Shown piece after piece: positions 10,089-36,330 of a stretch of 36,330 nt of DNA. The translations under genes were made by a program, and so were the position numbers. The DNA is from Caldilineaceae bacterium (lineage in GTDB: Bacteria > Chloroflexota > Anaerolineae > Caldilineales > Caldilineaceae). Under the pieces are notes generated by a model. It ran no database searches and was not told the origin of the DNA. It saw nothing but the letters and a program-made list of their open reading frames with translations. Every line of letters starts with the position of its first letter. Positions within the stretch are counted from its first letter, which is position 1. The stretch is taken from the NCBI GenBank assembly GCA_022824685.1, contig JAJDZJ010000108.1:1-36330 (forward strand), written 5' to 3'.

Positions 10089-13000
10089 ATGTTTCAACGT
10101 CCCGTCCTCCTGTTTCTTCCGCTCTTGCTTGCTCTGACAATACTCGGTTGCAACGGTTATCGCTCGCCAGAGCCCGCATTGGGAAGCGCTGGGCCGTCCG
10201 CCGCGGACGAGGAACTCGTATCCGCCAACGATTACGATGTAGGCCTCTCTTTCGAAGAGGAATTGGTTTTCGACGAGTCTGGCAGGCCTCCCTTTGTCCT
10301 GAGCGAAGGCCAACTTGGTTGGGATGGGGGCGAAGCCCGTCCGCCTCTGGCCGAAACGACGCCTCTGAGCGCGGATCACCTCCTGCAGCTGCTGGCCCGC
10401 CTTGCCCCTCTCCATGAGAATGAGAGCGACGTAGAGCAGTTCAGATTGCCCGACCAGAGCGTCCCGCCCCCGAGGCCCGGCTCAAAGGTGGAGCTGCCAT
10501 TCCCCCCGTCCCACGCGGACCCATCAACCGAATCCCCGCTCGACGCTTCGCTCTCTGTCCTGCGCTTCTCCCCGCATGGCAATGTGCCTCTCGCCCCCCA
10601 GCTGAGCGTAACCTTCAATCTCCCCATGGCGCCCCTGACCAGCCATCAACAGCTGGCCGGGGAAGACATTCCCGTCCTCCTTGAACCAGCCGTGCCTGGA
10701 CAATGGCGATGGGTGGGAGCCAAAACGGTCCTTTTTGAAGCGCGCATGGACGGCGCAGACAGAATGCCGATGGCCACTGAGTATTCGGCTGTTGTGCCCG
10801 CCGGTACCATGTCTGCAGACGGGAAAGAACTCGCTGAAGCAGTACGCTGGACCTTCCGCACACCGCCGCCGACCTTGCAGTCCGCCTATCCCATTGACGG
10901 GCCGGTTGGCCTGGAGCCGGTTCTATTCGCCTCCTTTGATCAGACCATCGACCCCGACGCCGTCCTCGAGCGCACACAAGTCACCGCACAGGGCCGTATG
11001 TACCCCGTCCGCAGCGCAAGCGAAGACGAGATCGCCGCCAAGCCCCGCATTCAGCGCCTGCTCGCCAGGTCTACCGAGAGCAGGTGGCTCGCTTTCGTGC
11101 CCGTTGAACCACTGCCGCGCAACACGACGGTGACCGTGTCCTTTCTTGCCGGAACACCCTCCGCCGAAGGCCCTCTCGTAACCGCGCATCCGCAGAGCTT
11201 CAGCTTCAAAACACCCGGACCCTTCCTTCTTCAACAGCAAGAATGCGGCTGGAGCAGAGATGAGATCTGCCCCCCCGCCAGTCCTTTTGCGCTGCAATTC
11301 AGCAATCCCATCGACACCGAGACCTTCGATCCCTCCCTCATCTCCATCGACCCCGAGCCGGACTACGTCTCCTTCGAAGTCTTCGACAACACCATCTGGA
11401 TCGCTGCCGCGACCAACGGCAGAACGACCTACAGCGTCACCGTTGACTCCGGATTGACCGACCGATTCGGCCAGCGACTTTCCGAGGACGCGCAAGTTCA
11501 ATTCACTACTGGGCCAGCGGAGGCCTTTCTGACAGCAGGAAGCCGCGGCCATATCACCGTTATTGACCCGTACGGACCGCCCGCCCTCCCGGTCTATTCG
11601 GTGAATGTCTTCGCCGTGAACGTGCGCGCCTATCGCGTCGCCCCGGAGCAGTTCATCGAATACCTGCAGTGGCGCAACGAGCGCTGGCGCGACGAGCAGA
11701 TGGAGCCGCCCGGCGAGCTCGTCATGGAGCGCTCGCTGGAGATCAGCCGCCAGTTTGATGTAATGGTCGAAACCGAAGTCGACCTTGCCGCCGCGCTCGA
11801 CCGCCAAACGGGTCATCTGATCCTCGACATTGAACCGGAGTTCGGCCTCCTTTCGCCTCTCATGGGCAGTCGCCTGCGGGACATGCGTATCATCAGATGG
11901 GTTCAGGTTACCAACATAGGCCTCGACGCCTTCGTTGACGCCGATGATATGTTGGTCTGGACCAACAGCCTCGCTGACGGCTCCCCGCTGTCAGGCGTTG
12001 AAGTCACCCTCTGGCCGCAGGATGCACAGTCTACTACCGACGAGACCGGCTCAGCCCTACTGCAGTTGCCCCGCAGCAGCGCCCAACTGCTCATTGCCCG
12101 CAGTGGCGTCGACGTAACCTTCCTCCCCGAAAACCGCTACGAATACTACAGAACGGAGAGCGGTTGGAACGGCTGGCGGCGGCGCGATGAGAGATCCGAA
12201 GTTCGCTTCTTCATTTTCGACGACCGCGAAATGTACCGCCCCGGCGAAACCGTAAGCGTCAAAGGTTGGCTTCGCAAAATAGAGGGCGGTCTGGCAGGCG
12301 ATGTAGGCCTACTGTCCCAAAGCGCCTCCCACTCCCTGCAATACACTGTGCGTGATGCCACCAGCAATCAGATACTGACCGGCGAAGCAACGCTCAATCC
12401 TCTGGGGGGATTCCATTTCCAGTTCGAGCTCCCCGGCAACGTCAACCTGGGCTACGCATGGATCGAGTTCCAATACATCTCCGCCGAAGATGAATCGCGT
12501 CATGGCCACCTGTTTCAGATCCAGGAATTCCGCCGCCCCGAATTCGAAGTCAGCGCAACTGTAAGCCAAGGGCCTCACATCGCCGGGGGCCATGCCCTGG
12601 CCACGGTCAGCGCCTCCTACTTTGCCGGCGGCCCGCTTTCCAGCGCAGAGGTCGGCTGGGATGTTGAAGCCTCTGAAGCCTCCTACCAGCCCCCAAACTG
12701 GTCCGACTTTATTTTTGGCCGATGGTCCCCGTGGTGGCGTTACGATGACGGATCCAGCTACCTTGGACGCGCCTCCTTCAGCTCACGCACCGACGCAGCC
12801 GGCCAGCACGCTCTGCGAATCGACTTCCGCGACGAAGCCGCAGATGCTCCCTCCGCCGCCACCAGCCCGGAACAGGTGAGCCCCTTCCCGACCCACATCA
12901 ACGCAACGGCCACCGTATTCGATGTCAATCGCCAGGCATGGAGCAGCCGTGCCGCTCTCCTGCTCCATCCGGCCGACCGGTACGTCGGCATTCGCGCTGC

Positions 13001-16000
13001 CCGCTACTTCGTCGACCAGGGCCAGCCCCTGTCCGTCGATGTCGTCGTAACCGATATCGACGGAAACGCAATCGAGGGGCACCAAGCAATCGTTAGGGCC
13101 GCGCTGCTCGACTGGGAGTATCGTGACGATATGTGGCGCCAGATCGAGACCGAAACGCAGAATTGCACCGTCGAAACGACCTCCGCCTCCGTCCAGGACG
13201 ACACCGAACCACCCTTTGCTTCCTGCTCATTTGATACAGAGGTTGGCGGAGAATACCGAATCACCGCCACAGTTGTCGACCGCGCCGGACGGCGAAGCCA
13301 GACCGAACTGTCCCGCTGGGTGACGGGCGGCACGCGCCCGCCCAGCCGTACTCTGGACCGAGAAGAGCTGCAACTCATACCGGATAGCCGGGACTACGCG
13401 CCGGGCGATACGGCGGAGATCCTCGTCCAAGCCCCCTTCTACCCCGCTGAAGGTCTTCTGACCTTGCGGCGCGACGGACTCGTGTCCAGCCATCGCTTCT
13501 CGATGGATGAGCCCACCTACACTCTGCTCGTGCCGATCGAGGAGGGCCACATTCCCAACCTGCATATTCATGTGGACATTGTCGGCGCCAGCGCACGCGT
13601 CGACGAATCCGGCAACCCTATGCCAGGCCTGCCTGCCCGTCCTGCCTACGCTCGCGGCACACTGAACCTGACGATCCCGCCGCTGAGCCGTACTCTTCAG
13701 GTGGAGGCTGTTCCCGGGGCGACGCGCCTCGCGCCCGGCGCTGAAACGACAATCGACGTAACCGTCATGGACCACAGCGGCGCTCCCGTGCCCGATGCCG
13801 AGGTCGCCGTCGTCGTCGTCGATGAGGCAATTCTTGCCCTCACCGGCTACCAGATGCATGATCCAATCAGCGTCTTTTACGACGACAGAGGCGCCAGCGT
13901 CAGTGATCTTCACAACCGCGGAGATGTTCTCCTCGCCAGTTCACAGATCCTTTCCGACGAAATGCCTTCCCCAACCGGGACGCCGCAACGCCCGACAACG
14001 ACCACGCAGTTCCGTTCCATGGGCATAGCTGCAGACGCCGCAGACGCCCAGCCGGCGGCCATGGCTGAGATGGCGATGGACGATGAAATGGCTGAAGAGG
14101 AAGGGGCAGCCGATAGCGATGGACAGTCCATCCGCGTCCGACTCAACTTCGACCCCCTGGCCCTTTTCGCGCCCGAAGTTCGTACCGACCACAACGGCCG
14201 CGCGAGCCTGTCGCTCACGCTGCCCGACAATCTCACCCGCTACCGGGTCATGGTGGTCGCCGTTTCCGGGGGCCAGCGTTTCGGCGCCGGCGAAGCCAGC
14301 CTAACCGCGCGCCTGCCCCTCATGGCGCGGCCCTCTGCCCCCCGCTTCCTCAATTTCGGCGACAACTTCGAGCTCCCCGTCGTCCTGCAGAACCAGACCG
14401 ACGAGGACATTGAGGCGTATGCGCTGGTTCGCGCGGCAAACGCTGACCTGACTCAAGAGAGCGGCGTCGACGGAGCTGTCGGCTACATTGTTACGGTCCC
14501 CGCCAACGACCGCGTTGAAGTGCGTTTCCCCACAGCAACATCCAGCGCCGGCACTGCGCGCTTCCAGTTCGGCGTAGTCGACGCCAATCAACCGGCCACT
14601 GCCGACGCAGCCGAAATCGACCTGCCCGTGTTCACCCCCGCCACCACCGAAGCCTTCGCAGTATACGGCGAAGTCGATGCAGACGGCGCCATTCTGCAGC
14701 CGCTGCGGCCACCCGCAGACGCGATTCCTGATTACGGCGGCTTGGAGGTGACACTCTCCTCCACCGCCCTGCAAGCGTTGACAGATGCCTACCTCTACCT
14801 CGTCCGGTACCCGTACGACAGCTCCGAGCAGATCGCCTCCCGTATTCTGGCCGTCTCTGCCTTGCGGGATCTGCTGACAGCCTTCGACACCGAGGGTCTT
14901 CCCGCCTCCGACGAGATAGACAGAATGATGGAAAGCGATCTGCAGACGCTGGCGGCCATGCAGGATTTCGGAGGCGGCTACCCAATCTGGCGGCGCGGCG
15001 CGCCCATCTGGCCCTACCACAGTGTCCATGTCGCGCATGCCCTCGCCCGCGCCCGCCTCAAAGGCTACCCAGTGCCCGAAGAAATGGTGAGCCGCTCTCT
15101 CGCCTATCTTCGAACCATCGAGCAGCAGGTCCCCTCCTGGTATGCTGAAGATACCCGCCGCGGACTCTCCGCATACGCCCTCTACGTTCGCAAACTGCTC
15201 AACGACCACGACCCCGCCAAAGCCCGTGCCCTGCTGCGCGAGGCCCGGCACGAAAGCTTCTCTCTCGAAAGCCTCGGCTGGCTGCTCTTCGTCCTCACCG
15301 ACGATGCAGCCGCGCAGTCGACGGTCGCCGAAATGCGCCGCTTCCTCAACAACCGGATCACCGAGACGGCCGGCGCCGCGACGATCGCATCCTCCTACAC
15401 CGACGGCGACTATCTTCTCCTCCACTCCACCCGCCGCGCCGACGCCGTCCTTCTGGAGGCGCTCGTCGTCGACCAACCGGATAGCGATCTCATCGCCAAG
15501 CTCGTCAACGGACTGCTGGGCCATCGCACCGCCGGTCGCTGGAGCAATACCCAGGAAAACGTCTGGGTGCTCCTGGCGATGGACCGCTATTTCAGTCGCT
15601 TTGAAGCCCAGACGCCCGACTTCGTCGCCCGAATCTGGTTGGGTGAACAGTTTATTGCTGGTCACTCCTTCCAGGGCCGTTCCACCGAGTACCGCGGGCT
15701 GGACCTCCCAATGCAGTTCCTCCGCGACAGTTCGACCAGCCCGAACGAAGCGCTGCCGCTAACGGTCCTGAAAGAGGGCCAGGGCCGTCTCTACTACCGC
15801 TTGGGCCTGCGCTACGCGCCTGCCGACCTCGACCTGGATCCAGCTGACCACGGCTTCGCACTCGAACGCATCTACGAGGCAATCGACGATCCCGCCGACG
15901 TAACCCGTGACGAGAATGGCGTTTGGCGCATCCGCGCCGGCGCCCGCGTCCGCGTCAGGCTCACGTTGGCGGCTCCCTCGCGGCGCGTCCACGTCGCCCT

Positions 16001-16322
16001 CGTAGACCACCTGCCTGCCGGCCTCGAAATCCTTAACCCCGATCTGGCCGTGACTGCCGATCCCCCTCGGGAAACGGACAAGGCCTCAACCGGGCGCTGG
16101 TGGTGGAGCAGCTGGTACCAACACCAGAACCTGCGCGACGACCGCGCCGAGGCCTTCACCTCCTATCTCTGGGCCGACGTCTACGAATATAGCTACCTCG
16201 CCCGGGCGACGACACCCGGCGCCTTCATTGCCCCGCCCGCCAAGGTGGAAGAGATGTACACGCCCGAAACCTTCGGCCGCACCGGTTCCGATTGGATCGT
16301 TGTTGAGATTAGCGAAGAGTAG
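10089..16322 (+). CDS. Bacterial alpha-2-macroglobulin-like lipoprotein lacking the thioester cysteine
   Basis: A 2077-residue giant of the bacterial alpha-2-macroglobulin (MG/A2M) family, thought to trap or inhibit proteases at the envelope. The N-terminus is a lipoprotein signal with lipobox LTILGC, and AAGGAG lies nine bases before the ATG. Family landmarks in order are a long MG-domain region, VDEAILALTGY near 1244, NFDPLALFAPEVRTD starting at 1353, the alpha-toroid thioester-type domain from about 1530, and the C-terminal HLPAGLEI and EEMYTPETFGRT elements. At the site where thioester members read C-x-E-Q, this protein reads S-S-E-Q (1578-1581) after YPYD, so no internal thioester can form. 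A linker rich in Ala, Met, Asp and Glu (about 1310-1345) sits where a bait region is expected. No pbpC lies beside it. Residues 1578-1581 are direct observation; the trapping role is by family. Confidence 0.93.
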   Translation: MFQRPVLLFLPLLLALTILGCNGYRSPEPALGSAGPSAADEELVSANDYDVGLSFEEELVFDESGRPPFVLSEGQLGWDGGEARPPLAETTPLSADHLLQLLARLAPLHENESDVEQFRLPDQSVPPPRPGSKVELPFPPSHADPSTESPLDASLSVLRFSPHGNVPLAPQLSVTFNLPMAPLTSHQQLAGEDIPVLLEPAVPGQWRWVGAKTVLFEARMDGADRMPMATEYSAVVPAGTMSADGKELAEAVRWTFRTPPPTLQSAYPIDGPVGLEPVLFASFDQTIDPDAVLERTQVTAQGRMYPVRSASEDEIAAKPRIQRLLARSTESRWLAFVPVEPLPRNTTVTVSFLAGTPSAEGPLVTAHPQSFSFKTPGPFLLQQQECGWSRDEICPPASPFALQFSNPIDTETFDPSLISIDPEPDYVSFEVFDNTIWIAAATNGRTTYSVTVDSGLTDRFGQRLSEDAQVQFTTGPAEAFLTAGSRGHITVIDPYGPPALPVYSVNVFAVNVRAYRVAPEQFIEYLQWRNERWRDEQMEPPGELVMERSLEISRQFDVMVETEVDLAAALDRQTGHLILDIEPEFGLLSPLMGSRLRDMRIIRWVQVTNIGLDAFVDADDMLVWTNSLADGSPLSGVEVTLWPQDAQSTTDETGSALLQLPRSSAQLLIARSGVDVTFLPENRYEYYRTESGWNGWRRRDERSEVRFFIFDDREMYRPGETVSVKGWLRKIEGGLAGDVGLLSQSASHSLQYTVRDATSNQILTGEATLNPLGGFHFQFELPGNVNLGYAWIEFQYISAEDESRHGHLFQIQEFRRPEFEVSATVSQGPHIAGGHALATVSASYFAGGPLSSAEVGWDVEASEASYQPPNWSDFIFGRWSPWWRYDDGSSYLGRASFSSRTDAAGQHALRIDFRDEAADAPSAATSPEQVSPFPTHINATATVFDVNRQAWSSRAALLLHPADRYVGIRAARYFVDQGQPLSVDVVVTDIDGNAIEGHQAIVRAALLDWEYRDDMWRQIETETQNCTVETTSASVQDDTEPPFASCSFDTEVGGEYRITATVVDRAGRRSQTELSRWVTGGTRPPSRTLDREELQLIPDSRDYAPGDTAEILVQAPFYPAEGLLTLRRDGLVSSHRFSMDEPTYTLLVPIEEGHIPNLHIHVDIVGASARVDESGNPMPGLPARPAYARGTLNLTIPPLSRTLQVEAVPGATRLAPGAETTIDVTVMDHSGAPVPDAEVAVVVVDEAILALTGYQMHDPISVFYDDRGASVSDLHNRGDVLLASSQILSDEMPSPTGTPQRPTTTTQFRSMGIAADAADAQPAAMAEMAMDDEMAEEEGAADSDGQSIRVRLNFDPLALFAPEVRTDHNGRASLSLTLPDNLTRYRVMVVAVSGGQRFGAGEASLTARLPLMARPSAPRFLNFGDNFELPVVLQNQTDEDIEAYALVRAANADLTQESGVDGAVGYIVTVPANDRVEVRFPTATSSAGTARFQFGVVDANQPATADAAEIDLPVFTPATTEAFAVYGEVDADGAILQPLRPPADAIPDYGGLEVTLSSTALQALTDAYLYLVRYPYDSSEQIASRILAVSALRDLLTAFDTEGLPASDEIDRMMESDLQTLAAMQDFGGGYPIWRRGAPIWPYHSVHVAHALARARLKGYPVPEEMVSRSLAYLRTIEQQVPSWYAEDTRRGLSAYALYVRKLLNDHDPAKARALLREARHESFSLESLGWLLFVLTDDAAAQSTVAEMRRFLNNRITETAGAATIASSYTDGDYLLLHSTRRADAVLLEALVVDQPDSDLIAKLVNGLLGHRTAGRWSNTQENVWVLLAMDRYFSRFEAQTPDFVARIWLGEQFIAGHSFQGRSTEYRGLDLPMQFLRDSSTSPNEALPLTVLKEGQGRLYYRLGLRYAPADLDLDPADHGFALERIYEAIDDPADVTRDENGVWRIRAGARVRVRLTLAAPSRRVHVALVDHLPAGLEILNPDLAVTADPPRETDKASTGRWWWSSWYQHQNLRDDRAEAFTSYLWADVYEYSYLARATTPGAFIAPPAKVEEMYTPETFGRTGSDWIVVEISEE

Positions 16323-20588: not shown

Positions 20589-23405
20589 CTATACTGGCGC
20601 GAGTCTCGCGCGCACCAGCTTCTCGGCCAACACCAACTCCGCGTCGCCAGCGGCAACTTCGCCATCCACCAGAGCCGAGCGTAAGGCGCGCAATACTTCC
20701 CCATACGCAGGGCCCACCGGCAGGCCCATTCTTCTTAAGTCTTCTCCGTTCAGCGACGACTGAATATGCCGCCAACTTTGCGCGTAGCAATCCAGCCGTT
20801 CCCGTAACAACGCGTCCTCCTCCAGCAACGAAACGAGCAGCAGGATCACCGGCTGAACGCGGTCCAGAATGGCAACAACCTCACTCGGCCGTATCCGAAG
20901 GTCGGTCAACTCAGGCAACCGGGTCTTGACCAGGCGCAGCTCGCGCATCAGTTGCCGCGTCTTTCCCCGAAGTTTCAGCCGTTCGCTCAATGCGCTTTCC
21001 AGCGGTGTCGTTTCCCCATCGCCGCTTCCCGTCGCAGGAAAAAGATCATAGACCAGCAGTCCCCAGTAGAGACGCTCGATTGGCGTGCCACATATCACAC
21101 GCGGGCCTGCTGTGCCCTTCGATGCCGCCAGAGAAGAAATGCCCTCCGCCCTTCCATCCTTCCGTCCGGCTGGACCGCCGCCAGCGCTCCCGCTCCCCGC
21201 CTCAATGATTTCGATTCGGTCGCGTAACGCAACACTTCTCTCCGCAAATTCAGGCCCGGCCCGCAATGCAGGATGGATCTGCCTGAGTATGCCCAGTTCA
21301 TCCAGGCGCAAAACCGCATCCTCCGGCTTCGCCTCCTGGAATATTCTGTGCAGCTCCTGCCGAATTCGCGCGGCCGTAACGCGCCCAACCAACTGCGCGG
21401 CATCCACAAGATGCTCCTGCGTCCGCGCCTCTATCTGGAATCCAAATCGCTGTTCATAACGAACGGCGCGCAGAATTCGGGTCGGGTCATCCACAAAACT
21501 CAAACTGTGCAGAACGCGGATCCTGCCGCCCTGCAAGTCGCTCAATCCACCGTAGAAATCAAGCAGGTCGCCCCACCGATCCGGTGTCAGCGCGACTGCC
21601 AGCGTATTGATCGTGAAATCCCGCCGGTGCAGGTCCAATTTGATACTGCCCTGTTCAACGGTCGGAAGCACAGTCGGCTCCGTGTAAAATTCAGTGCGCG
21701 CGGTTACGAAATCAAGATGGCTGGGCAATTGCGCCCCGCCTTCACGAAGTCCTCCTTTCTGCAAATCGGGACAGGTCAATGGGGAATCGGATTCATCCAG
21801 AATCCATTTGGCGGTGCCGAAGCGAGCGTGCGTTACAATCCGACCGCCGCATTGGTTCTGCATACGCTCGGCCAATTCGATCGCATCGCCCTCCACCACC
21901 AGGTCCATGTCCACAAAGGCGGCCCCGTCGTCCCTGTCGAAACGACCAAACAGCAGGTCTCGGACAAAGCCGCCAACCACATATACGGAGTTCCCTGTCT
22001 CGGCCGCGGTCTCTCCGACCAGCCACAGGAGCCTGTGCTGGCTGGCCGAAAGAACCTGTTCCAGCTCCCGGCTGACGTCCGGGATTCGCTGCCCTGCCTC
22101 TCTCTCTTCCCCCCACAGCTTGAGCAGGTCTGTTCGAGTGACGATGCCCACCATCTCGCCCTCGGCATCCACAACCGGAATCTGTCCCCAGCCGCTCTCA
22201 ATCATCAGCCCATGAAGCGCGCTCACAGGTGCGTCCGCCCGAATCGTATGGCTCCCCTGTTTCATCACTTTATGTACAGGTAACTTGCCCAGCCGGTGGC
22301 TGATCGTGCGATCCGCCTCTCGCCGAGTCAGGATCCCCACCAAACTGCTGCTGCCGTCGTCCCCGGCGCGCAAAACGGGGAATCCTTCGTGGCCATAGCG
22401 CTGCATCAACTCCGCCGCCGCCGATACCGACATCGAATCGTCAAGCGTGCGGGGCCGACCCCGGCTCATGATCTGCGCAACGTCAGCCGGCGCACGCGCG
22501 TAACGCTCAAGCAAAACGCCAATCCGTTCTCTCGCCTCCGCCAGCGTTACGCCATTCAATAGCGCGGCCGCTGCGCGAGGGTGACCACCACCGCCCAGCT
22601 CTTCTGCTATCTGTCCAACATCTATTGCATCCGTGTTGCTGCGCGCCACAACCTGCACGGTATCGCTCAGACTGACGACGACAAACAAGGCATCCGGATC
22701 AAATAGCTCGTTCAGCCTGTGGGCAAGTCCACTGAGCTCATCGTCATATTCGGGGGCTTCTGCCGCCGCGAACAGAACGTTTTGCCCCGCAACCTTCACG
22801 TGTTCGGCCTGCTCGGTCAGCTCTTTCTGCGCGTCCGACGGCGGGAAGTGCATGAAACGACGGATCACCTCCAGGCGGGCGCCCTGCTCAACCAACCAGG
22901 CCGCGCAACGAACATCACGATGCGTTGTGGAGGGGTACAGCAGACTGCCGGTGTCTTCGTATACGCCCAGCGCCAGCAGAGTTGCCTGAAATCGGGTTAA
23001 GGCCCTGTTCTGGTGCATCAGCCTCTCAACCAGAAGCGTCGTATTTGCGCCTGTCGTGTGCGGCCCAAGCGCTTCCTGCCAGATCTCCCATCCGGAAGGC
23101 AGCGGCTCAGTCGCGGTGTGGTGGTCTATCACCAAGTGACGCGTCTGGTCCCCCATGCCCTTAACGGCATTGAAAGTGCGCGTGTCCACCAGGATCGCCA
23201 ATTCAACACGGCCCCGAAGCAATTGCCGCGGATCTACAAAAGGGAACTGGTTGCGATAAAGGGACAAAAAAGCCTCGACGTTGCGCTGAAGCTTCCATGG
23301 CAACACGGGCACAGCACGCGGAAAAAGCAACGCGCCCCCCAACAGAGAGGCGAGCGCATCGAAGTCAGCGTGCTCGTGGGTTAAGATGACTGTTTGGCCG
23401 CGCAT
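20589..23405 (-). CDS. DHH phosphoesterase-CBS pair-tRNA nucleotidyltransferase/poly(A) polymerase fusion
   Basis: A 938-residue three-part protein. Residues 1-290 are a DHH/DHHA1 phosphoesterase like NrnA (THEHADFDA near 9, D94-H95-H96, GGGGHP 271-276). Two CBS domains follow (about 313-368 and 380-432). From about 473 is a class II poly(A) polymerase/CCA-adding head: GGFVRDLL (478 onward), catalytic D499-x-D501, RRDFTINTLAVAL and DPTRILRAVRYEQRFGF. This fusion is known in several bacterial phyla and is taken to add CCA or A to tRNA 3' ends, with the DHH part possibly trimming RNA and CBS sensing adenine nucleotides. The ATG at 23405 is preferred to a TTG at 23444; neither has a clear ribosome-binding site. 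Confidence 0.9.
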   Translation of the reverse strand: MRGQTVILTHEHADFDALASLLGGALLFPRAVPVLPWKLQRNVEAFLSLYRNQFPFVDPRQLLRGRVELAILVDTRTFNAVKGMGDQTRHLVIDHHTATEPLPSGWEIWQEALGPHTTGANTTLLVERLMHQNRALTRFQATLLALGVYEDTGSLLYPSTTHRDVRCAAWLVEQGARLEVIRRFMHFPPSDAQKELTEQAEHVKVAGQNVLFAAAEAPEYDDELSGLAHRLNELFDPDALFVVVSLSDTVQVVARSNTDAIDVGQIAEELGGGGHPRAAAALLNGVTLAEARERIGVLLERYARAPADVAQIMSRGRPRTLDDSMSVSAAAELMQRYGHEGFPVLRAGDDGSSSLVGILTRREADRTISHRLGKLPVHKVMKQGSHTIRADAPVSALHGLMIESGWGQIPVVDAEGEMVGIVTRTDLLKLWGEEREAGQRIPDVSRELEQVLSASQHRLLWLVGETAAETGNSVYVVGGFVRDLLFGRFDRDDGAAFVDMDLVVEGDAIELAERMQNQCGGRIVTHARFGTAKWILDESDSPLTCPDLQKGGLREGGAQLPSHLDFVTARTEFYTEPTVLPTVEQGSIKLDLHRRDFTINTLAVALTPDRWGDLLDFYGGLSDLQGGRIRVLHSLSFVDDPTRILRAVRYEQRFGFQIEARTQEHLVDAAQLVGRVTAARIRQELHRIFQEAKPEDAVLRLDELGILRQIHPALRAGPEFAERSVALRDRIEIIEAGSGSAGGGPAGRKDGRAEGISSLAASKGTAGPRVICGTPIERLYWGLLVYDLFPATGSGDGETTPLESALSERLKLRGKTRQLMRELRLVKTRLPELTDLRIRPSEVVAILDRVQPVILLLVSLLEEDALLRERLDCYAQSWRHIQSSLNGEDLRRMGLPVGPAYGEVLRALRSALVDGEVAAGDAELVLAEKLVRARLAPV

Positions 23406-23536
23406 CAGCGTAGTCGGATGGGTTGCCCCCGAATCTGCGAACAACTATACGCCCCGCATCGCCGACGCGCAAGCGCCTGCCGGGAAGAGGTCTGATCCTG
23501 TCTGGCGGCCGCAACCACCCCAGACCGAAGCAAATC

Positions 23537-33254: not shown

Positions 33255-33593
33255 TCAAGGCAGAACAATCCTCATCAGGATCAGGGCAAATACTGAAGCC
33301 AGTGTCGCCTCCAACAGGCTGAGCTGACCAATTCGTAGAGTTTCCCACTGTAACGTTTCGCTAACCCAATGGCCCAGCGCAAATCCCAACCCGGCCACGA
33401 CGATAAACTGCGGCAATTCGCGTAGCGACCGTCCTGTCCACAGATGAAATATGCTGGCATAGCCCGTGACAAGCAGTGTACCCAACAGGACTGCCGGACT
33501 AAGAATAAGTGATGTGATCGGCGTACCAGGAACCAGTCGTGTACCTCCCCGCTCCCTATGACGCAAGCTCAGCCCGCTCCAACTCGGGCCCAA
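33255..33593 (-). CDS. Small polytopic membrane protein, unknown function
   Basis: Up to 112 residues with about three hydrophobic segments (near 26-44, 62-76 and 92-112), no family recognised. The start is unclear. A TTG at 33593 or 33566 lies inside the end of mnmA without a good ribosome-binding site. A perfect GGAGGT is six bases before a CTG at 33536 (residue 20), which would begin just before the first hydrophobic segment and leave mnmA without overlap. A CTG start is rare but fits this spacing best. The C-terminus is IVLP at the membrane side. It is in line with mnmA and the next small membrane gene, so all three are probably one transcript. Confidence 0.55.
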
Positions 33594-34701
33594 CCGGCCT
33601 CGCGTTGCCCGCTTCCTCCCTGGCGATCAACCCCCCACCCAAACAACGAGCCCCGTCATAAAAGACCGCGCCCTGGCCGGGACTGATGCCGCGCGCCGGC
33701 TCATCGAATGTCACCCGAACGCTGCCGTCCCGCAGCGGGCAAACCCTGCAGTCGAGCGGACGGCCCGTATGGCGGATCTGACATTGTACCCGGCTGCCTT
33801 CCGCGACCGGCTCGCCTGATGTCCAATTGACATCTCTTGCGACGAGCTCCAACCTGCCCAGCGCCTCGGACGGCCCAACAACCAGTTCATTGCTTTCAGG
33901 CTCCAACGAGACCACGTACATAGCGGAAGCCGAGCCGCTCAGGCCAAGACCCTTCCGCTGGCCTACCGTATAGTTAGGCAACCCGCGATGCTTGCCAACC
34001 ACCTTCCCATCCACGTCCACGATATCGCCCCCGGCCATCGCATCAGGAGCCCAGTCTGTCAGAAAGCGCCGGTAGTCGTCGTCAACAACAAAACACAGAT
34101 CCATCGAATCGTGCTTGCTGTGAATCGGCAGCCCGCGCGCCGCCGCCATCCGTCTGACTTCCTCCTTCGGCATATCCCCAACCGGAAAGAGCAGATCCTG
34201 CAGCTCAGCCTGCCCCAGCACGCTCAGCACATAGGACTGGTCCTTCTGGGTATCCACACCCCGTAGCAGAAGTACTCGACCGTCCGCCTCCCGCCGCAGC
34301 CGGGCGTAGTGCCCCGTCGCCAGGAAATCTGCCCCCAGCCTCCGCGCATAGTTGAGCAGATAGTCGAATCTTATGTGCCGGTTACATGCGAGACAGGGAT
34401 TCGGCGTCAGCCCGGCGCTGTACCCTTCGATAAAGAAATCCACGACCTTCTCTTTGAAGGGCCGCTCGACATTGATCAGATAGAACGGTATGCCCAGCCG
34501 GTCTGCGACCCGCCGCGCATCCGCAACGCTCTCTTCATCACAGCACTTGTTCCCGGATCCCTCGCCGCTTGCCACTTCGGCCCAAAGGCGCATCATCACG
34601 CCAATGCAGCGATATCCCTGCTCAACCAGCAACGCCGCCGCCACCGAACTGTCGACACCGCCGCTCATGGCAACGACGACGGTCGTCTCCGAGGGTGACA
34701 T
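33556..34701 (-). CDS. mnmA: tRNA-specific 2-thiouridylase
   Basis: MnmA thiolates U34 of tRNA-Lys, -Glu and -Gln, taking sulfur relayed from a cysteine desulfurase. The PP-loop SGGVDSS (13-19) binds [10 protein letters not shown] (101-107) gives the first catalytic Cys (C103), and HDSMDLCF gives the second (C203). Later family elements such as VGQRKGLG and the C-terminal beta-barrel [12 protein letters not shown] are present. The length, 381 residues, is normal. I start at 34701, where AAGGAAAGG directly precedes the ATG; the frame is open to 34743, but the extra 14 residues are Arg-rich and atypical. Two small membrane proteins follow on the same strand. No mnmE, mnmG or iscS is in the window. 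Confidence 0.95.
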
Positions 34702-34987
34702 CCTTTCCTTGCGTCTTATCGTCCTGTCAATCATGCTGCGCATTTTAACACACCCACCGTTTTTCCGTCATGGCCGGAGCAGCCTGCGCGTGTCCGGGCC
34801 CGCTCCTTCTCGCCTACGACTTCGCTGAGCGCAGTTCAGATGTGTGGCTGCCTGGAAAAGCAGGCTCCAGGATTCAATGAGATCTCCCAGCGATAGCCCC
34901 AAAACTCGCCTAAACTACCCTGCTCCTCGCGCTTACCTGTCTTTCTCTCTCTCCTCACTTCTCTCCCCTCTCTCCTCGCTTTGGGGC

Positions 34988-35040
34988 GGTCAGCCGCAAG
35001 CGGCTTCCCTTGTGCGGGGGGGACACCCCCAGGGCAATCG
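34988..35040. repeat. Degenerate intergenic repeat, copy B, with two hairpins
   Basis: Partner of the copy at 32609-32653. It contains two strong dyads: AGCCGC (34992-34997) with GCGGCT (35000-35005), and GGGGG (35018-35022) with CCCCC (35026-35030). These are missing or changed in the other copy, so the two copies have drifted. Confidence 0.42.
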
Positions 35041-35044
35041 AATT

Positions 35045-35173
35045 TTATTGGGAGAGAACATTCAGCAGATAGTCAGTTTTCCAACCAGCTCGTTTACGTT
35101 TGGCGGCAATAGCGACTTTGGCGCTTTTCTCATTGCGTAGGAGGTTCAGGGCCAGTTTGCGTAAGATGGCCAG
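35045..35173 (-). pseudogene. ISAs1-family transposase, C-terminal fossil
   Basis: The last 42 codons of an open frame ending at 35045 read PLAILRKLALNLLRNEKSAK, then a short Lys/Arg-rich stretch and GWKTDYLLNVLSQ. This is the conserved end of ISAs1/H-repeat transposases (N-L-A-x-L-R-R-x-A-L-N-L-L-R). Upstream of this the frame turns into GC-rich repeat sequence with no transposase likeness, so the 5' part is lost. The sequence CAGGGCAATCG at 35030-35040, just past the stop, may be a remnant of the terminal inverted repeat. The family call rests on this short stretch. Confidence 0.62.
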
Positions 35174-35216
35174 GGGAAGGGCGGGGAACGGCAAGGGCGA
35201 ACGGCAACAGCTTTCT

Positions 35217-35294
35217 ATCCACGGAGGGGCACGGAGGAGGGCAACGGCAGACGGCAACGGCAGATTGATCCACGAAGGGACACGGAGGAGGGCA
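35217..35294. repeat. Two copies of an ATCCACG(A/G)(A/G)GGG-type direct repeat
   Basis: Copies at 35217-35243 and 35268-35294 both read ATCCACG, A/G-rich, then CACGGAGGAGGGCA. A third related piece, ATCCGCGAAGGGACGCG, lies at 35684-35700. CCACGAAGG-like elements recur in many environmental genomes; no function is known to me. Confidence 0.45.
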
Positions 35295-35340
35295 GCGCCT
35301 TTGTGGTGCGCGAAGGGGATGGTGTGAGGGCGTGGTGGGT

Positions 35341-35659
35341 GTTCGTAAGTGTTTACGAGCGTTCATGAGTGTTCGTGAGTGTTCTTGAGCGTCTGCGAGT
35401 GTTCCCGAGCGTTTGTGAGTGTTTACGAGCGTTTGTGAGTGTTTACGAGCGTTTGTGAGTGTTTACGAGCGTTTGTGAGTGTTTACGAGTGTTTGTGAGT
35501 GTTTACGAGTGTTTGTGAGTGTTTACGAGTGTTTGTGAGTGTTTGTGAGCGTTTACGAGTGTTTGTGAGTGTTTGTGAGTGTTTGTGAGCGTTTACGAGC
35601 GTTTGTGAGTGTTGGTGAGTGTTACGAGTGTTCCCGAGCATTTGCGAGCGTTTGTGAGA
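35341..35659. repeat. Array of about 32 ten-base tandem repeats
   Basis: About 32 units with consensus GTTTRYGAGY repeat in strict 10-base register from 35341 to 35620, then continue with one 9-base unit and end units to 35659. GTTTGTGAGT and GTTTACGAGC alternate in the middle, giving a 20-base higher period, while both ends are more varied. Because 10 is not a multiple of 3, TGA and TAA fall in all frames, so it is not coding. The period is close to one DNA helical turn, so any protein contact sites would line up on one face. Confidence 0.85.
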
Positions 35660-35717
35660 GATTGGAGGTGGAAAAGGGCGGGGATCCGCGAAGGGACGCG
35701 AATCGGGGCCAGGGCGA

Positions 35718-35750
35718 GTGATGAATGGGCGATGAACGGGCGATGAATGG
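35718..35750. repeat. Three 11-base tandem units
   Basis: Units GTGATGAATGG, GCGATGAACGG and GCGATGAATGG are contiguous. They lie 58 bases beyond the 10-base array and differ in sequence from it. Confidence 0.6.
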
Positions 35751-35848
35751 GCGTTTGCGAGCGTCTGACGAGGTGTTGAGGGGGGGGCTGGGCGGTCTAA
35801 TGGGCGTTGCAGCGGGTGGGGCGGCAGGATGGTGGGAAGGGGGTTACG

Positions 35849-35870
35849 CTGCCGCGCGGAGGGGCGGCAG
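35849..35870. terminator. 7-bp hairpin downstream of the right-edge gene
   Basis: CTGCCGC (35849-35855) pairs with GCGGCAG (35864-35870) across an 8-base loop. It lies just beyond the stop of the minus-strand gene at 35910 and could end that transcript, but no T run follows on the minus strand. Confidence 0.35.
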
Positions 35871-35909
35871 GAGTTCGTTATATGCTATTTGTTTTCCGAC
35901 CTTCCCAGG

Positions 35910-36330
35910 TCAGGAGGTTGGAACGGGCTGGTGGTTGATTACGGCGCCACTGGGGGCGTCCGGGTTGTGAAGTTCGTCCTGCGTTCTTTCGTATTCGTCA
36001 TCCAGATAGAGGTTCTCGAGGAGGCGAATCAGGTCCCCGGCCTGGCGCACCTGGTCCTCCAGGACATCAGGGTCGGTTTCGACTTCGCCGGTTTCGGGGA
36101 CGACGCCGGTCCTGGCCCGGGCGGGCAGCCTGTCCATGGGCTGTCCGGTCAGGGGGTCGCGCAGGGGCTCGGGGGCGTCTTCGGCGCCGCTGGTGAGCGC
36201 AGTCCGGGCTGCTTCCATCTCGTCACGCATCTCTTTCGTCATTTCGATCACGTATGGCAGTTCTTCCTTGGGGAAGCGGTATTGCAGCGCGTCGTTTCTG
36301 AGTGTGTCGAGGTCTTCCTGTGTGTAGGCG
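35910..36330 (-). CDS. Hypothetical protein, N-terminus cut off by window edge
   Basis: The frame is open from the right edge of the window to a stop at 35910; no start or upstream stop is seen before the edge, so the gene continues beyond it. At least 139 residues are visible. They are acidic and polar (Glu/Asp about one fifth), with helices likely around DLDTLRNDALQYRF and the segment EMTKEMRDEMEAA, a middle Pro/Arg-rich linker, then another acidic helix (VRQAGDLIRLLENLYLD). I do not recognise the family. The in-frame GTG at 36251 is not needed as a start because the frame before it is also protein-like. Confidence 0.55.
   Translation of the reverse strand, partial: AYTQEDLDTLRNDALQYRFPKEELPYVIEMTKEMRDEMEAARTALTSGAEDAPEPLRDPLTGQPMDRLPARARTGVVPETGEVETDPDVLEDQVRQAGDLIRLLENLYLDDEYERTQDELHNPDAPSGAVINHQPVPTS

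Follow-up and report, generated by a model that had tools for sequence, protein, structure and literature searches.

Iteron and parC arrays of direct repeats are bound by Rep or ParR proteins, and transposon ends can carry multiple transposase sites. The nearest described kinds to the locus reported here are BOX and the BrickBuilt MITE. BOX of Streptococcus pneumoniae is a short interspersed repeat of the form boxA-boxB(n)-boxC whose internal tandem modules vary in number (PMC3049150), and BrickBuilt of Porphyromonas gingivalis is described as a MITE without a gene that carries a minisatellite of 23-bp units, lies in intergenic DNA and has a limited host range (PMC4596501).

Here, we analyzed a window of 36,330 bp, i.e., the whole stretch of Caldilineaceae DNA under study, which is one contig (C195) of an assembly of 5.23 Mb in 243 contigs (G000). 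Near its end lies a tandem array of 10-bp units that an earlier note had described from the sequence, overlooking the adjoining gene and the association between gene and array. We propose that the array is the expanded cis module of a genus-specific, apparently mobile DUF5763-type gene family, with the module serving as a putative protein landing site, a reading to which we assign a probability of roughly 0.58.

Results

The array occupies positions 35341-35659 on the minus strand, where its unit reads CTCRYNAACN in the sense of the adjoining gene, corresponding to GTTTRYGAGY on the plus strand. TRF reports it at 35367-35658 with a period of 20, 14.6 copies and a score of 332, and anchoring on GAG yields 31 units with spacings of 10 bp in 29 of 30 cases and 9 bp in one, in good agreement with the earlier count of about 32 units in register with few indels. 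Within the unit, each T of the pair at positions 3-4 is present in 30 of 31 units and positions 1 and 5-7 vary, much as had been claimed for the internal bases, the invariance of GAG in this alignment being a consequence of the anchoring. The 20-base superperiod of the earlier note is statistically evident but local, chiefly at 35417-35537: for the variable triplet, 14 pairs agree at lag 2 against a shuffle mean of 7.8 (p 0.004), and just 3 agree at lag 1 against a shuffle mean of 8.1 (p 0.011), and by eye no alternation run of this kind is seen in the orthologous arrays of two relatives. Stops interrupt all six frames, bearing out the non-coding assignment. The longest run of CTCRY in gene sense comprises 22 units, against a longest run of 2 (28 times) or 3 (twice) in 30 dinucleotide shuffles of the window. 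The array is unlikely to be an artefact of assembly, because arrays like it are present in other assemblies and the single-contig genome G011 has runs reaching 13 units (relaxed pattern CTYRY). A structured RNA was considered and set aside, an Rfam search of the window giving 0 matches at gathering score.

The contig stops 671 bp beyond the array, inside a multi-copy gene on the minus strand (35910-36330), of which the C-terminal 139 residues (residues 196-334) are kept up to the contig end. Between the gene stop and the array lies a 250-bp spacer (35660-35909, minus strand), which has homologous counterparts in contigs C138 and C235 and partly in C104, and which carries a CTGCCGC...GCGGCAG inverted repeat close to the gene stop. 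The far side of the array is a repeat-rich flank (35173-35340) with CCACGGAGGGGCACGGAGG and GCGCGAAGGGGATGG segments, at least partly common to C138, C235, C3 and C104. It is followed by a dispersed repeat of ~145 bp (35030-35174, minus strand) that resembles the 3' end of an IS transposase beside its inverted end, which we take to be ISAs1-like; further copies occur genus-wide, often at contig ends, and the 42-residue peptide of the C3 copy has no Pfam match at E 0.01. This repeat probably lies outside the element formed by gene and array. A mnmA-type gene with Pfam tRNA_Me_trans domains (33556-34743, minus strand) provides the anchor for the orthologous locus. Elsewhere, the window encodes a bacterial alpha-2-macroglobulin-like protein of 2,077 residues (10089-16322) and a 951-residue protein combining DHH/DHHA1, CBS and poly(A)-polymerase head domains (20589-23444).

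The protein of the window fragment has nine matches in its own genome, six of them at a contig end, which suggests why contigs in these genomes often stop in such genes. Three full-length copies measure 309, 328 and 334 residues, and it is from full-length relatives that the N-terminal DUF5763 zinc-ribbon is known, the window fragment having no N-terminus. One of three proteins, the C23 copy, passes the Pfam model DUF5763 (PF19067) with 30.2 bits against a cut-off of 26.3, and the C44 and C140 copies score 24.8 and 21.0 bits, under that cut-off. Among the 41 genomes searched, the gene was found in 14 of the 17 belonging to the genus and in 0 of the 24 outside it. The relatives recovered with names are Caldilineaceae MAGs (54 loci), many of them presumably sponge symbionts. 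Values of dN/dS between 0.20 and 0.72 in 13 pairs suggest that the protein is under weak to moderate constraint. A modest AlphaFold model (pLDDT 78, pTM 0.43), built for the relative L100 from G008 and not for the window fragment, predicts a zinc-ribbon-like N-terminus followed by long helices; a fold search of the PDB gave no match at E <= 0.001 (best fold match E 1.6), and the best sequence match has E 0.021. Searches of Pfam, PHROGs, NCBIfam, PADLOC and the PDB with two to three full-length relatives or their alignment found no transposase, and no domain other than DUF5763 was found in Pfam, PHROGs, NCBIfam or PADLOC. Two further candidates were rejected: a phage origin, since viral contigs and, with one query, phage records yielded no relative and the best PHROG match was weak (E 0.02), and a defence gene, with no PADLOC match for two copies. 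A literature search returned no paper mentioning 'DUF5763'.

The association between gene and array extends across the family. Runs of CTCRY units at 9-12 bp spacing were sought around 29 gene copies with flanks, out of at least 30 loci; a partial copy at a contig end with no 3' side (L084) was left out, flanks are short in L081 (97 bp 3'), L071 (12 bp 5') and L069 (300 bp 5'), and several of the 29 are orthologous pairs (e.g., L060/L061, L072/L073 and L065/L085) and thus not independent. At least three units follow the gene in 22 of 29 copies, all in gene sense with 0 antisense, and at least four in 18 of 29, compared with means of 0.28 (maximum 1 of 29) and 0.0, respectively, in 100 dinucleotide shuffles, a control that covered the downstream sequences only. 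A left-end partner in the form of a CTCRY run upstream of the gene was considered and rejected, such a run being seen in just one of 29. Four units is the commonest length (13 of 22 sites), and across all 22 the first unit lies 143-387 bp past the stop in 21 and 457 bp past it in the remaining one; in window-type copies (n = 12) the array begins about 233-260 bp after the stop. The 61 spacings of 20 short sites are 10 bp (30), 11 bp (28) and 12 bp (3), with a mean of 10.56 bp where 9-12 bp were allowed, close to the helical repeat of B-DNA (10.5 bp). An exact CTCGTACGAG palindrome accompanies 12 of 29 copies and a one-base variant 3 more, sometimes within a longer palindrome. Copies at 36-52% protein identity to the first sequence of the alignment (18/21) are among those that keep the module, and the 7 of 29 that fail the run test comprise six with a degenerate or shorter version, as judged by eye, and L081 with its 97 bp of downstream sequence. 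The set also includes two long sites in G008 (L068 and L076), with 13 and 23 units at a spacing of 10.06 bp. Since the short site is conserved beside gene copies and long copies run from 13 to about 40 units, the window array is most readily understood as a conserved short site that has expanded.

These spacings bear on the suggestion that repeats on one face of the helix bind a protein. It suits the short site with its mean of 10.56 bp and suits the uniform long array less well, because a nearly uniform period of 10 bp drifts around a 10.5-bp helix and takes long arrays off a single face. The long arrays, with their nearly uniform 10-bp period, may well have no function.

The module could also be read as a transcription end signal that marks or reinforces the gene's 3' end alongside an intrinsic terminator. 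Among 24 copies, four of which had their start positions set by hand, 9 show a T-run of at least five in the 45 nt preceding the first unit, as against 116 of 5600 random windows (2.1%), and L064 has a textbook hairpin with a T-run. The remaining 15 of 24 copies have no T-run, however, the window copy offering just TTTT, and the direct repeats come after the T-run and, by eye on unfolded sequence, contain no hairpin apart from the terminal palindrome. We therefore regard this role as very improbable.

At the orthologous locus, the mnmA region is 92% identical in G008 and G013, both of which, among the matches listed, have this element with an array in the corresponding position, and there the gene is internally deleted (residues 1-93 and 288-334 found). 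Counted by a single rule, the arrays hold 28 units in the window, 36 in G013 and 40 in G008, with differing inner units. Between G008 and G013 there are 7 mismatches in 5 kb; within the arrays a single gap of exactly 30 bp, equal to three units, and 1 mismatch separate the two, and the flanks of 800 bp on each side show 0 and 1 differences. The 13 other mnmA-bearing genomes have neither gene nor array in the ~1.5 kb beyond mnmA that was examined (~180 bp only in G002), and mnmA itself was not found in G003 among the matches listed. A 30-bp gap amid nearly identical 5 kb, together with 13 genomes lacking the element, therefore provides direct evidence of unit-wise exchange after lineage-specific gain, and the slippage or unequal exchange proposed in the earlier note is thereby supported.

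Such unit turnover, like the local 20-bp superperiod, would also fit an inert satellite grown by slippage from a chance seed and functionless at any length. For the expanded copies, the inert satellite of the earlier note may still hold; it applies less easily to the conserved short module, whose near-helical spacing beside many diverged gene copies it leaves unaccounted for. We consider a functionless satellite the least probable of the readings, and a control or mobility site that has been stretched is a likelier account of the array than random satellite DNA.

Arrays of this kind recur in the same genome and in relatives, where the earlier note had proposed to look for them, and the register on which it had made its reading depend is kept in relatives. 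BLAST places the family at 11 sites in the own genome, the window included, and a three-unit pattern has 48 matches there versus 4 for the reversed control. Across the 17 genomes of the genus, a four-unit pattern is present in 7 among the matches listed, and G000, G008 and G013, where arrays reach about 40 units, hold 204 of the 214 matches listed, with 5 in total for the reversed control. Long arrays are expansions, found mainly in three genomes. As to the origin or terminus preference raised in the earlier note, sites look scattered by eye, among the matches listed, along the single-contig chromosomes G011 and G015, whose origins were not located.

Several comparisons suggest movement of gene and module together. 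Setting dispersed repeats aside, L106 and L109 have ~1.45 kb in common at 91%, from promoter to repeats, with otherwise different flanks among the matches listed, and contigs C31 and C20 of G008 have 1.56 kb in common at 91%, from promoter to array, with a left limit at AAATTGCCCCTTGACA. At an intergenic locus, here called locus X, the element is present among the matches listed in G011, G014, G015 and G009 and absent from G002, G007 and G016, where the flanks are about 80, 70 and 270 bp apart, respectively. Also among the matches listed, G008 and G013 have ~1.7 kb there with a short CTCRY module and no gene match, and G000, G004 and G010 have gaps of ~3.2, 1.1 and 1.5 kb with no gene; the locus could not be read as one interval in G001, G003, G005, G006 and G012. 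Internally deleted and 5'-truncated gene copies still have the array at its usual distance. No flanking pair of terminal inverted repeats emerged when five DUF5763 loci were scanned for the ends of the type-2 element described below, other ends being inspected by eye only, and no target-site duplication was seen by eye at locus X or between C31 and C20 of G008, the sites being hypervariable intergenic DNA. Judged by these alignments, gene and site look mobile.

The module also exists without the gene. Among the matches listed, a three-unit CTCGT pattern occurs in 16 of 17 genomes of the genus, with 0 for the control in all. The exception, the single-contig genome G004, is the sole one of the 17 with no match listed for the CTCGT pattern, the DUF5763 gene or the MITE-like query, and a host factor might come to light from its comparison with the other genomes. 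The pattern matches 18 times in G005 and 11 times in G003, an assembly that is 81% complete, with no DUF5763 match among those listed in either, and therefore the gene product cannot be the sole user of the module. At four loci in G009, G006 and G007 (L193, L195, L205 and L207), the module is internal to a MITE-like element of ~530 bp (type-2) with inverted ends TAGGRSTCGTTGACATTT, both of which are clear in G009C65 and G009C117 and weaker in G006C91; in G007C29 the right end was not found. Among the matches listed, 16 of 17 genomes contain sequence of this element: 8 have it at near full length, and in the others it is mostly the module alone that matches. Modules of 3-5 units further form higher-order tandems of up to 12 modules, mostly ~129 bp apart (range 81-141), with a unit spacing that by eye is nearer 10-10-10-11 (L223, L225, L226 and L229 in G011; L213 and L217 in G015; L228 in G009; L227 in G005). 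Given these other carriers, a factor other than the DUF5763 protein may use the module, or the module may spread as a selfish repeat. An integron-type gene cassette, which modules behind unrelated genes might suggest, was rejected, some of these being the MITE-like element with its own inverted ends and others tandem module arrays. Directly 5' of one ~530-bp element, in contig C29 of G007 (L207:298-3524), lie Pycsar-type defence genes (PycC E 1.9e-70, PycTM E 4.2e-32), which follow a protein whose N-terminus is TIR-like.

The extra carriers make a selfish short interspersed repeat a serious rival. On that account the module is BOX- or MITE-like and parasitic, travels on several carriers, is amplified by slippage and has no role in binding the DUF5763 protein; its presence inside an element with inverted ends that matches most of the genus, and in higher-order tandems, fits well, and BOX (PMC3049150) and BrickBuilt (PMC4596501) are precedents for tandem repeats in non-autonomous elements. 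It leaves unexplained, however, the similar position, the single orientation and the persistence beside diverged gene copies, and we judge it possible but on the whole unlikely.

Discussion

We prefer an expanded cis module with a putative protein-binding site, because a similar place, a single orientation, near-helical spacing and survival beside diverged genes argue for selection. The module would be a helically phased landing site for a DNA-binding protein, either the DUF5763 protein itself or a host factor, and the bound protein may act in moving or maintaining the element, as in iteron clusters or transposon-end arrays. A site of several near-identical units would be prone to replication slippage or unequal exchange, which may have produced the 13-40 units seen mainly in three related genomes, and the expanded copies might provide extra binding sites or be neutral; either may hold. 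What appears to speak against the cis-module reading, on sequence grounds, is that terminal inverted repeats, target-site duplications and a transposase domain or fold were not recognised and that the module also occurs without the gene. In a bolder version, the DUF5763 protein, made of a zinc-ribbon and long helices and lacking any known transposase fold, would itself mobilise a transposable element of a new class; it would bind the CTCGT array, one-ended and helically phased, whose unit number would tune the frequency of movement. This seems to us quite unlikely.

Collectively, our analysis shows what had seemed a satellite to be the visible end of a multi-copy gene family, about which we found nothing in print. 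The family offers a naturally graded set of one near-helically spaced site beside one gene, with some four to some forty units, in which repeat number can be set against binding, mobility and stability.

Compared with iteron and parC arrays, the short sites likewise comprise a few short direct repeats spaced by roughly a turn of the helix, in some cases close to AT-rich DNA and a dyad. They thus have the helical spacing of that type of array, their binding by a protein being putative; unlike iterons and parC, they exist in many chromosomal copies, and the element yielded no identifiable gene for replication or partition. They resemble transposon ends with multiple transposase sites in that short sites recur at one end of a mobile unit, whereas here the sites are one-ended, with no inverted copy found opposite and no recognisable transposase. 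With BOX, the family has in common a short interspersed repeat with variable internal tandem modules; it differs in its 10-bp unit, in its place 3' of a specific protein gene and in a gene-bearing form in which no terminal inverted-repeat modules were found. Like BrickBuilt, it combines a minisatellite within a mobile element, an intergenic location and a limited host range, and, unlike BrickBuilt, it exists for the most part as a near-helical site of roughly four units, of which only some copies have expanded.
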